A stretch of 64,000 bases of DNA from Lewinella sp. IMCC34183 (GTDB taxonomy: Bacteria > Bacteroidota > Bacteroidia > Chitinophagales > Saprospiraceae): NCBI RefSeq assembly GCF_003390915.1, contig NZ_QMEM01000002.1:372001-436000 (forward strand), written 5' to 3'. Below, piece by piece: positions 19,304-21,467 of the stretch (positions within the stretch are counted from its first letter, which is position 1; each line of letters begins with the position of its first letter). Made by a program: the position numbers and the translations under genes. Below the pieces are notes generated by a model that was given only the letters and a program-made list of their open reading frames with translations, did not search any database and was not told the DNA's origin.

Positions 19304-20323
19304 TCAGATCAGGGCCGACCGCGCCCGTTCCAGCAATTGTCGCCGTTCGTCCAGGGTCAGCGACACCTGCAACTGCGCGATGCCGATCAGACGGCGAATG
19401 ATCTCCACGTAGGAGAACCGGCGGGCGAGCTCCGTATCGTAGCCCGGCGGCTTGGCGTAGTCGGTTTCCAGCTGCCGGATCCGCTTCGGCGGTGTCCGGC
19501 TGAGGAGTAGGTGCGCCATCAGTACGCCAATATCATACTCGGCCCGCCCCAGGTGAGCGAACTCCGTGTCGATCACGTAGATACGCTCCTCCGCGTTCAG
19601 GAAGCTCCCGGGGTAAAAGTCGCCGTGCAACAGGGTGGGCCCGTCCGCCAGGTAGATCTCACCGAGTTTCCCGGCGGCTTCCCGCAGGCGGGCGTCGTGC
19701 TGCAGGGGACGGGCCACTTCGGCCAATCCGGGATAGATGGCGTCCAGCGGGAATCCATTATCCGGCCGGAAGGGCAGATCGAAGATATGCGCGTGGTTGA
19801 GCGTCTTCAGCGGCCGGTTGTCCACGAAGTCGTCGACCTTCAAGGCGTGCAGCCGGCCGGCGAACCGCAGCAGGGTGGCCAGTTGCCGGCGGGTGAAGCC
19901 CTCGCCCTCCTGGTAGACCGTCGACAGGTCGTTGGCCAGGCCGAGGTCCTCCAGCACCAGTACGTAGTGGTCCGGGTCGGCCCGTAGCAGTTCCGGCATG
20001 TGGCCGGCCAGGAAATGGTCGCCGCGGGTCGCGTGGTAAAAGCCACGTTCTACCATGATGCGCTCGATGGGTGCGTCCAGAACGGGAAAACGGGCCACCC
20101 AGGGCCGGCTCTGTTTTACGATGAACTGCCGCCGGTTGGTGGTCACGCGCAGGGTCACGTTCATATTTCCCTCCCCCGCCACTTCGGTCGATAGTACCCG
20201 CTCCTCCGGAATCAAAAAGCTGCTTGCCGCGAGATACTCCTGCAGCTGACGGGGATCCTCGGCGGTCAGGTACCGCGCACCGGCCGTCTCGCGCCTCCAC
20301 CGTTGCTGTAGATCATCCGCCAT
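19304..20323 (-). CDS. Methylthioribose-kinase-like small-molecule phosphotransferase
   Basis: The 339 residues have the bilobal APH/choline-kinase fold. The G-rich loop GEGNMN (51-56) and Lys70 match the nucleotide loop of methylthioribose kinase (GDGNLN). The catalytic loop is HGDFYPGS (233-240), where the usual Asn is replaced by GS as in MtnK (HGDLHTGS). The metal site is IDTEFA (Asp252), followed by a YDIG...LLLS helix, also MtnK-like. MtnK phosphorylates 5-methylthioribose in methionine salvage, but no other salvage gene is nearby and the protein is about 60 residues shorter. The substrate is therefore open. A structured RNA with its own terminator lies directly upstream. Confidence 0.75.
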   Translation of the reverse strand: MADDLQQRWRRETAGARYLTAEDPRQLQEYLAASSFLIPEERVLSTEVAGEGNMNVTLRVTTNRRQFIVKQSRPWVARFPVLDAPIERIMVERGFYHATRGDHFLAGHMPELLRADPDHYVLVLEDLGLANDLSTVYQEGEGFTRRQLATLLRFAGRLHALKVDDFVDNRPLKTLNHAHIFDLPFRPDNGFPLDAIYPGLAEVARPLQHDARLREAAGKLGEIYLADGPTLLHGDFYPGSFLNAEERIYVIDTEFAHLGRAEYDIGVLMAHLLLSRTPPKRIRQLETDYAKPPGYDTELARRFSYVEIIRRLIGIAQLQVSLTLDERRQLLERARSALI

Positions 20324-20373
20324 TCCGCAATGATAAGGCGCGACGCCGAACTTGTTTCACCACCGACCCCCCC

Positions 20374-20406
20374 AAAAAAAGAGCCCCGGTGAAAACACCG
20401 GGACTC
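20374..20406 (-). terminator. Intrinsic terminator of the putative small RNA
   Basis: CCCGGTG (20385-20391) pairs with CACCGGG (20396-20402) around an AAAA loop. A mismatch and a GAG/CTC extension follow. Seven A residues at 20374-20380 give the U-tract on the minus strand. Confidence 0.85.
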
Positions 20407-20541
20407 CCGAAACAGGTTGCAAAAAAGGAAAGGAGGACGCCAATGCCCTCCTCCCGTAAATACTCACTCAAAACATGTTAGTTCGTGGCCTCCCGTACCG
20501 CAGCGAGCGGTCGGAAGGCATCTATCACTGCTGCTTTACGT
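20374..20541 (-). ncRNA. Putative structured small RNA or transcription attenuator
   Basis: A full Bacteroidota promoter (20547-20577) and an intrinsic terminator (20374-20406) bracket about 168 nt on the minus strand with no credible open frame. Between them lie two hairpins. One is at 20488-20519, with an 8-bp stem including one G-U, one bulged base and five more pairs. The other is at 20432-20454, with a 6-bp GGAGGA/TCCTCC stem. The product could be a stand-alone sRNA such as a 6S-type RNA, or a leader controlling the kinase gene that starts 50 nt beyond the terminator. No known riboswitch consensus was recognised. The start site is approximate. Confidence 0.55.
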
Positions 20542-20546
20542 CCCGA

Positions 20547-20577
20547 CAAAAATACGTCTTTTCGCGCTTTTTAACAA
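20547..20577 (-). promoter_or_regulatory. Promoter of the putative small RNA
   Basis: On the minus strand TTG (20577-20575) is followed after 20 nt by TATTTTTG (20554-20547), a full match to the -33/-7 consensus. Confidence 0.7.
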
Positions 20578-20672
20578 GCAAAAAGATTAAATTATTCATC
20601 AATTTGCCTTAATGTAACCAATATGATTACGTATCATCTATATCTGTCTCCTCTTCTACAATTCTGTACGGT

Positions 20673-21467
20673 TTGAGTGCTTCCCGGCTTCCGCCCACTG
20701 TCGCAATCCTGGGTACGGGGTGGCTGGGCCTCCCCCTCCTGACGGACCTGGCCGGTGACCACGCCATCCGGGGGTCCTGCCGCTCCCCGTCCGGGGCAGA
20801 GGCCATCCGGGCGGCGGGCGGGCAACCGTACGACATCGACCTCCCCGCGGCCGCAGGTGAGCTGCCGGCCTTCCTGGACGGTGCCGATACCCTCGTGATC
20901 ACCCTCCCTCCGGGCGGGCGCACGCATGGGGAACGCACAACGGAGTACTACCTTTCCGCGCTGGCCCCGCTGGCTCCTTTCCTTCGGAACGGCCTGCACG
21001 TCCTGTACACGAGCAGCACGGGGGTATACGGTAACGCGGTAACGGGTACGGTGACCGAGACTACACCCGTCGCTCCGGATACCGCATCCTCGCGGGCCAC
21101 GGTGGCGGCGGAACGGTGGCTCCGGGAGCACGCACCCTCCCTGGCGATCCTGCGGTTGGGGGGCTTGTTCGGTCCCGGCCGCGACCCGATCGACTTTTTT
21201 CGGCGGCGGGAAGCCATCCCGGAGGCCGATGCACCCGTTAACCTAATTGGGCAGCAGCGGGCCGTTGCGGCCCTGCGTTTCGTTATTACCCGCCGCGTAA
21301 CGGGTATCTTTAACCTTTGCGCGGCCGACCATCCCAGCAAGCGGGAGTTCTACGGCGACCGCTACCGGGCCGCCGGCCGGCCTCCCAAGCCCTTTCTTCC
21401 CGGCGGCGGCGCCGGTAAGCGTATTGACTCCACCAAATTCCGCCTTCTCGGCGGACCAGAATTATGA
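20673..21467 (+). CDS. NAD(P)-binding epimerase/dehydratase-like protein (short SDR type)
   Basis: The 264 residues begin with a Rossmann motif VAILGTGWLGLPLL. They include a VLYTSSTGVYG segment characteristic of extended short-chain dehydrogenases and a LRLGGLFGPGRDP loop, and resemble YeeZ-type sugar-nucleotide epimerase relatives. The catalytic Tyr-x3-Lys motif is not evident; VYGN is followed by no lysine at +4, so activity is uncertain. The start is a TTG at 20673, since no ATG or GTG in frame precedes the Rossmann strand. Its TGA overlaps the ATG of the thioredoxin gene (ATGA). Confidence 0.7.
   Translation: MSASRLPPTVAILGTGWLGLPLLTDLAGDHAIRGSCRSPSGAEAIRAAGGQPYDIDLPAAAGELPAFLDGADTLVITLPPGGRTHGERTTEYYLSALAPLAPFLRNGLHVLYTSSTGVYGNAVTGTVTETTPVAPDTASSRATVAAERWLREHAPSLAILRLGGLFGPGRDPIDFFRRREAIPEADAPVNLIGQQRAVAALRFVITRRVTGIFNLCAADHPSKREFYGDRYRAAGRPPKPFLPGGGAGKRIDSTKFRLLGGPEL

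Follow-up and report, generated by a model that had tools for sequence, protein, structure and literature searches.

The intergenic DNA described here separates a kinase-like gene from a divergent epimerase-like gene, within the 64 kb stretch that was analysed as a whole (hereafter the window). A preliminary description had proposed that a complete transcription unit—a promoter, two hairpins and a terminator—lies here, with no credible open reading frame. We confirmed that the unit is real and that it occupies the minus strand: folding and a terminator scan recover the proposed parts, and the layout is a Bacteroidetes-type promoter, an RNA of about 170 nt and two terminator hairpins. The kinase-like gene scores 105.9 bits against the methylthioribose kinase model TIGR01767 (cut-off 275), and secA lies 3′ of it. 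The features of the locus are as follows.

19304–20323, minus strand: APH/methylthioribose-kinase-like gene (PF01636, 38.1 bits), outside the RNA
20328–20335, minus strand: TATCATTG, probable −7 box of the kinase-like gene, outside the RNA
20374–20408, minus strand: the second terminator, formed by hairpin B with its U tract (terminator scan, folding)
20414–20426, minus strand: element B, UUUUUUGCAACCU, predicted seed for a glucosaminidase leader (complementarity)
20428–20455, minus strand: hairpin A, followed by a U tract (20426–20421), of intrinsic-terminator type
20462–20475, minus strand: motif A, UGUUUUGAGUGAGU, the conserved core, before hairpin A
20488–20519, minus strand: 5′ hairpin, not kept in relatives
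20547–20554, minus strand: −7 box TATTTTTG, of the TAnnTTTG (sigma-ABfr) type
20574–20590, minus strand: second, weaker dyad of GTAATCnnnnnGATTAC type, overlapping the −33 region
20578–20582, minus strand: TTTGC, −33-like element, 28 nt 5′ of the −7 box
20614–20630, minus strand: GTAATCATATTGGTTAC, the upstream one of two dyads of GTAATCnnnnnGATTAC type, 76 nt ahead of the −7 box
20673–21467, plus strand: divergent NAD-epimerase-like gene (PF01370, 19.4 bits, cut-off 20.9), outside the RNA

Architecture of the unit

The promoter is conserved. TAnnTTTG lies 5′ of motif A in all 16 orthologs, 38–81 nt away except in a single ortholog with a distance of 149 nt, and nine of the 16 have TTTGC or TTTGA 27–28 nt before the −7 box. 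The upstream dyad, at offset −76, has a mean mismatch of 4.31 in 12 over the 16 orthologs, compared with an average of 8.76 (s.d. 0.82) for 160 offsets, and 11 orthologs have at most four mismatches at exactly this position. The runner-up among the offsets is −36, the place of the second dyad (mean mismatch 5.19 over the same 16). That the dyad keeps a fixed distance from this promoter is suggestive of a regulator for the RNA, one that probably acts through the two sites to turn the RNA on or off.

For the predicted 176 nt RNA the folding energy is −77.3 kcal/mol (z −5.2), a stability reached by none of 200 shuffles. Its three hairpins are each stable: the 5′ hairpin (20520–20486) at −24.4 kcal/mol (z −4.9), hairpin A (20456–20428) at −16.9 kcal/mol (z −4.1) and hairpin B (20409–20381) at −21.1 kcal/mol (z −5.1). 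The two hairpins originally singled out as good do both fold stably, but one of them, 20488–20519, sits in a 5′ part of the RNA that varies in length and sequence across species (nine sequences). The whole segment between promoter and motif A measures 30–141 nt and is unconserved across the 16 orthologs. Hairpin A is a different matter. It has 11–13 pairs and follows motif A by 4–12 nt in 16 of 16 orthologs, and compensatory double changes at four of its nine alignable pairs supply the covariation that the preliminary description had proposed to look for. Scanning 20200–20720 for terminators gave three sites where 0.6 were expected (20408–20379, 20455–20428 and a minor one overlapping 20408–20379), which points to two tandem terminators.

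Two stretches outside the hairpin stems are also conserved. All 16 orthologs share the same final 12 bases in motif A. Element B (UUUGCAACC, then a hairpin) is present in 12 of them, as is UUUUUUGCAACC before hairpin B; it is absent from L008, L009 and L010, and a match in L030 (GCAGCC) was left out of the count as promoter-like. Element B lies 50–54 nt after the start of motif A in L001–L007 and 80–187 nt after it in L012, L013, L018, L051 and L073, where it may be a separate unit. The conserved parts are the promoter with its two dyads, motif A, hairpin A and, in those 12 loci, element B.

Could this simply be a promoter with tandem terminators behind it, the motif acting in DNA or in termination rather than as part of a regulatory RNA? 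Hairpins A and B both resemble intrinsic terminators and the 5′ part of the RNA is unconserved, as such a reading would have it. However, a conserved promoter drives the unit, no shared frame follows it, and 12 invariant bases outside a hairpin stem are beyond a terminator's needs; we judge this explanation improbable. Translation of a short leader peptide or micro-ORF, either NUG UUU UGA or a frame with the ending CFE*, fares worse still. The 16 orthologs do have a frame ending GAG UGA that stays open upstream for some codons, but eight of them lack any start codon in it and there is no common peptide. No reading frame is conserved or shared among the 16 orthologs, which bears out the original view of the unit as non-coding, and we give the peptide almost no credence.

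Distribution in Neolewinella and independence from the kinase gene

The relatives of the source genome belong to the genus Neolewinella, and when 40 relatives were searched at the DNA level, strong matches came from that genus only. Of the 21 genus genomes, 16 match a covariance model of the RNA (model R1) with E-values no higher than 2.8e-8; the next best match has an E-value of 0.017, and the source genome itself has one match at E≤1. The exact 14-mer of motif A is present in 15 of the 21; in G020 the motif has one extra U and an identical final 12 bases. Among the genus genomes that lack the RNA, the epimerase gene and secA adjoin in G003 and G008 with no motif A between them, there is no epimerase gene in the 1.5 kb examined of G011, G010 (55% complete) has no secA match and the contig of G019 ends at the locus. 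G013 and G016 each have one additional exact motif A elsewhere. The second copy in G016 (L066, G016:C26:16340–16353) is accompanied by a terminator-like hairpin and lies between what appear by eye to be tRNA 3′ ends, though ARAGORN called no tRNA in L023, which is the same place.

Outside the genus the motif is no commoner than chance. In 199 genomes the 14-mer has seven carriers, as does its reversed control. Scanning 84,980 species genomes, a set that possibly left out records near the source genome, returned six unrelated records among 19, about the chance number by our arithmetic. Model R1 gave five weak matches outside the genus at E≤0.01 among 199 family genomes; among 298 genomes of the order it gave two at E≤0.001, both apparently coding (dnaA-like and accC-like by eye). 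One weak match in another genus (L130 1501–1566, minus strand, G085) is intergenic, reads GTTTTGAGTTAGT followed by a terminator and has a similar upstream AATCAAAAATTTGCAAC; it is a possible distant ortholog.

Gene order around the RNA is well kept. At least two of the epimerase, kinase and secA genes stand beside it in all 16 orthologous loci; at L010 the epimerase neighbour was not found. The kinase gene is next after the RNA in 13 of the 16, whereas in L013, L030 and L073 it is missing and secA comes next. The RNA is therefore independent of the kinase gene and not its leader.

This result decides largely between the two possibilities raised in the preliminary description, a stand-alone RNA and a cis-acting attenuator or riboswitch of the kinase gene. 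The gene does lie on the same strand, 50 nt past the terminator, and is the usual neighbour. But it is absent from three loci that keep the RNA, and elsewhere the kinase match starts anywhere from 137 to 493 nt past motif A. Nor does the proposed switch hold up as a conserved device: the letters at 20540–20545 and 20399–20404 (CGGGAC and GTCCCG) are complementary as stated, but the pairing is not kept in six relatives and the helix is found in this strain only. No riboswitch family matches at gathering score, or in the stretch under study at E≤10. Contrary to the initial impression that the kinase gene has no clear promoter, the promoter-like box TATCATTG lies ahead of it (20335–20328), with a counterpart at the matching place in five of 16 loci. 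We consider the cis-acting explanation largely refuted and correspondingly improbable. The stand-alone RNA, by contrast, is supported by its conserved promoter, motif and terminators, by the lack of a shared frame and by its persistence in the three loci without the kinase gene. As a separate observation, the TATCATTG box lies 4 nt ahead of the kinase start, so the kinase mRNA may be nearly leaderless.

Complementarity to a glucosaminidase mRNA

The 12-mer TTTTTGCAACCT occurs twice in the source genome, once in the RNA and once, on the opposite strand, directly before a distant start codon. The gene with this complementary leader lies 23 kb from the RNA, 2.8 kb beyond the window, and encodes a 245-residue protein with a Glucosaminidase domain (PF01832, 56.9 bits). 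We found it in the matching stretch of six genomes, 57–100% identical. All six leaders carry AAAGGTTGCA three or four bases ahead of the ATG, and the remaining leader diverges. Element B forms 13, 10, 8, 13, 13 and 13 contiguous pairs with these leaders (mean 11.7), the 8 bp pairing being that of G017.

The pairing is far better than controls. These were 73 genes, drawn from 448 frames of which 168 had homologues in three or more genomes and 73 an agreed start; they represent about 118 kb of the source genome plus syntenic DNA of five others, and some of the frames are possibly spurious. The runner-up among the 73 averages 6.2 pairs with element B. None of 200 shuffled element B seeds reaches 11.7 with any of the 73 genes, a comparison to be read knowing that the match was spotted ahead of the shuffle tests and that the gene set covers about 118 kb and not the whole genome. 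The duplex has an energy of −18.9, against a shuffle mean of −6.7, with none of 1,000 shuffles as low. Moreover, the leader motif is almost confined to this gene: in 2.02 Mb of genus DNA, counted with its overlaps, GGTTGCA stands at most 12 nt before the ATG of a frame of at least 80 codons in nine places, and in seven of the nine the gene is this glucosaminidase.

Motif A also matches the target, just downstream. Its pairing with codons 2–11 of the glucosaminidase mRNA is equalled by seven of 1,000 shuffles, and the order of the two pairings, motif A and element B, fits an antiparallel duplex. The register of the motif A–codon pairing is the same in G000 (the source genome), G018 and G012 and differs in the other three. 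On its own, motif A has no above-chance target in the set of 73, since 86 of 200 shuffles do as well. Perfect targets near a start codon, of the pattern CTCACTCAAAAN{0,20}ATG, are present in 17 of 21 genomes, mostly as the other strand of the RNA locus itself, and the remaining matches are no commoner than those of a control pattern. In the predicted folds of six genomes the mean unpaired fraction is 0.26–0.49 for motif A, which is partly paired, and 0.25–0.62 for element B.

The pairing was assessed in six of the 12 genomes with element B; G004 and G016 were outside the comparison, and the glucosaminidase gene was not found in the stretches examined of G002, G005, G007, G014, G015 and G020. 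One genome is an exception: G001 keeps the glucosaminidase leader AAAGGTTGCAAAATG, yet its RNA (L008) has no element B. The leader may therefore owe its conservation to something else, or be a relic.

Taking these results together, we propose that the unit is a stand-alone, trans-encoded, base-pairing small RNA (sRNA) of Neolewinella that acts on the glucosaminidase mRNA, and we put the probability of this reading at roughly 0.6. By its sequence features the RNA has the marks of that class—its own promoter and terminator, no coding frame and, in six genomes with G001 as the exception, conserved complementarity to the start region of a distant mRNA. Transcription would run on the minus strand, starting near 20542 and stopping near 20374, and a shorter form may end at hairpin A. 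The RNA would present two conserved segments, motif A and element B, with hairpin A between them. Element B would pair with the leader directly ahead of the glucosaminidase AUG and part of motif A (GAGUGAGU) with the first codons. Bound upstream and downstream in this way, the two segments would span the start codon, leaving hairpin A as a loop between them, and so block translation. Motif A may well have further partners, since it is kept in genomes without element B.

That last point underlies a different account, in which the sRNA is real but works mainly by motif A, through other partners—several mRNAs bound by short pairing, or an RRM-type protein—and the element B match is a side effect or chance. 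Motif A is indeed the most conserved part and persists without element B in L008, L009 and L010, the G001 leader is retained where element B is absent, and the source genome encodes one RRM_1 protein. However, the match between element B and the glucosaminidase leader is better than all shuffles, and the leader motif is nearly exclusive to that gene in the DNA examined. We regard this account as rather unlikely. The RRM_1 protein, the sole match to that domain in the genome (L207 1495–2160, plus strand, G000:C53), has 221 residues and a glycine-rich tail; it could be a partner of the sRNA, as RbpB is for FopS.

We also tentatively suggest an elaboration of the glucosaminidase-targeting sRNA, which we hold to be possible but on balance doubtful: a bipartite antisense sRNA whose targets depend on where transcription ends. 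Termination at hairpin A would yield a short RNA with motif A only, and read-through to hairpin B would add a second seed, which draws on the U tract of the first terminator. If so, transcription termination would decide which mRNAs are silenced, that of a cell-wall glucosaminidase among them.

To our knowledge, few trans-acting sRNAs with targets have been described in Bacteroidota outside Bacteroides. If the proposed targeting is correct, it would be a rare testable case in this phylum of sRNA control of an enzyme that cuts the cell wall, and would link the remodelling of the cell wall in these bacteria to regulation after transcription. The proposal is directly testable because the structure is conserved in most genomes of the genus, the promoter has probable regulator sites and the predicted target is named and conserved.

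Comparison with known RNAs

The window contains nothing that reaches an Rfam gathering score, and the stretch under study has seven sub-threshold matches at E≤10. The preliminary description had put forward a 6S-type RNA as one candidate. Our RNA is like 6S RNA and 6S-Flavo (RF00013, RF01685) in its length and in being single-copy (one covariance match in the source genome). But no 6S family is among the matches at E≤10, and the pairing of the 5′ end with the region of hairpin B, which would form the closing stem, is not conserved in six relatives; an identity with 6S RNA is extremely unlikely. The 6S-Flavo model also had no match in the source genome as a whole, nor did it have any in the control genomes. 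The best of the sub-threshold matches is Spot 42 (RF00021), whose covariance model aligns weakly with the hairpins (28 bits, E 0.0019 in a 421-base search; gathering score 80). Spot 42 is a gammaproteobacterial RNA.

A multicopy, sRNA-like family in the Saprospiraceae (L157–L206) came to light alongside this work. Its 16-mer TGGGTTTTAGGTGTTT is present in 39 of 199 family genomes, compared with two for the reversed control, and the source genome has one exact copy (G000:C3:38552; L187 1553–1568, plus strand). A terminator-like hairpin follows in 64 of 73 places by a crude test that includes copies with one or two mismatches, and tandem arrays reach six copies about 147 nt apart (G089). In 40 of the 73 places (L189–L191, L193, L165 and others) the 16-mer comes after TTTTCATGATAT or a variant of it, a sequence similar to the 5′ terminus of the FopS consensus in Rfam, GUGUUUUUCAUgGUAUUAG; the score is 15.3 bits against a cut-off of 56. 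The Saprospiraceae may have their counterpart of FopS in this family, whose seed would then be antisense to start codons. A phage search with the multicopy motif gave nothing better than E 7.

We considered kinship between this family and the Neolewinella RNA. Model R1 does list 51 of 59 family copies at E≤10. However, shuffling motif A leaves it just as similar to the family motif in 14,058 of 20,000 cases, the family copies score no better in an HMM with the motif than with the motif shuffled, and the reverse search with model R2 did not find motif A. On these three outcomes the family is not upheld as a relative.

FopS of Bacteroides (RF04319) is itself among the closest known comparisons. 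In the available text of its description (PMC11697453), FopS shares with the Neolewinella RNA a TAnnTTTG (sigma-ABfr) promoter and a conserved segment directly followed by an intrinsic terminator, and it pairs at the translation initiation region, as we predict here. The same text gives FopS 12–15 copies, against the one covariance match of the Neolewinella RNA, and a SusC transporter as target, against a predicted cell-wall hydrolase. The two also differ in seed letters, the Neolewinella RNA having two predicted seeds with a hairpin between, and RF04319 is not among the seven matches at E≤10. Thus the conserved segment and terminator of the FopS plan are present, and the multiple copies and the Rfam match are not.

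GibS of Bacteroides thetaiotaomicron offers a second parallel. As far as its published account goes in the available text (PMC7366714), it is trans-encoded and has seed regions R1 and R2 around the start codon, similar to the Neolewinella RNA; the likeness is one of description, and the promoter motif of GibS is PM2, unlike ours (PMC11697453, available text). Among the sources we searched, the letters of the two motifs tried do not appear, those of GGGTTTTAGGTGTT from the multicopy family being likewise absent, and we found no sRNA of Lewinella or Neolewinella. Judged by its sequence, the Neolewinella RNA would be a new family within a known kind, the trans-acting base-pairing sRNAs. According to the same two sources (PMC7366714; PMC11697453), the start codon region is where both GibS and FopS bind their mRNAs, so that the mode of action we propose has precedent in the phylum.
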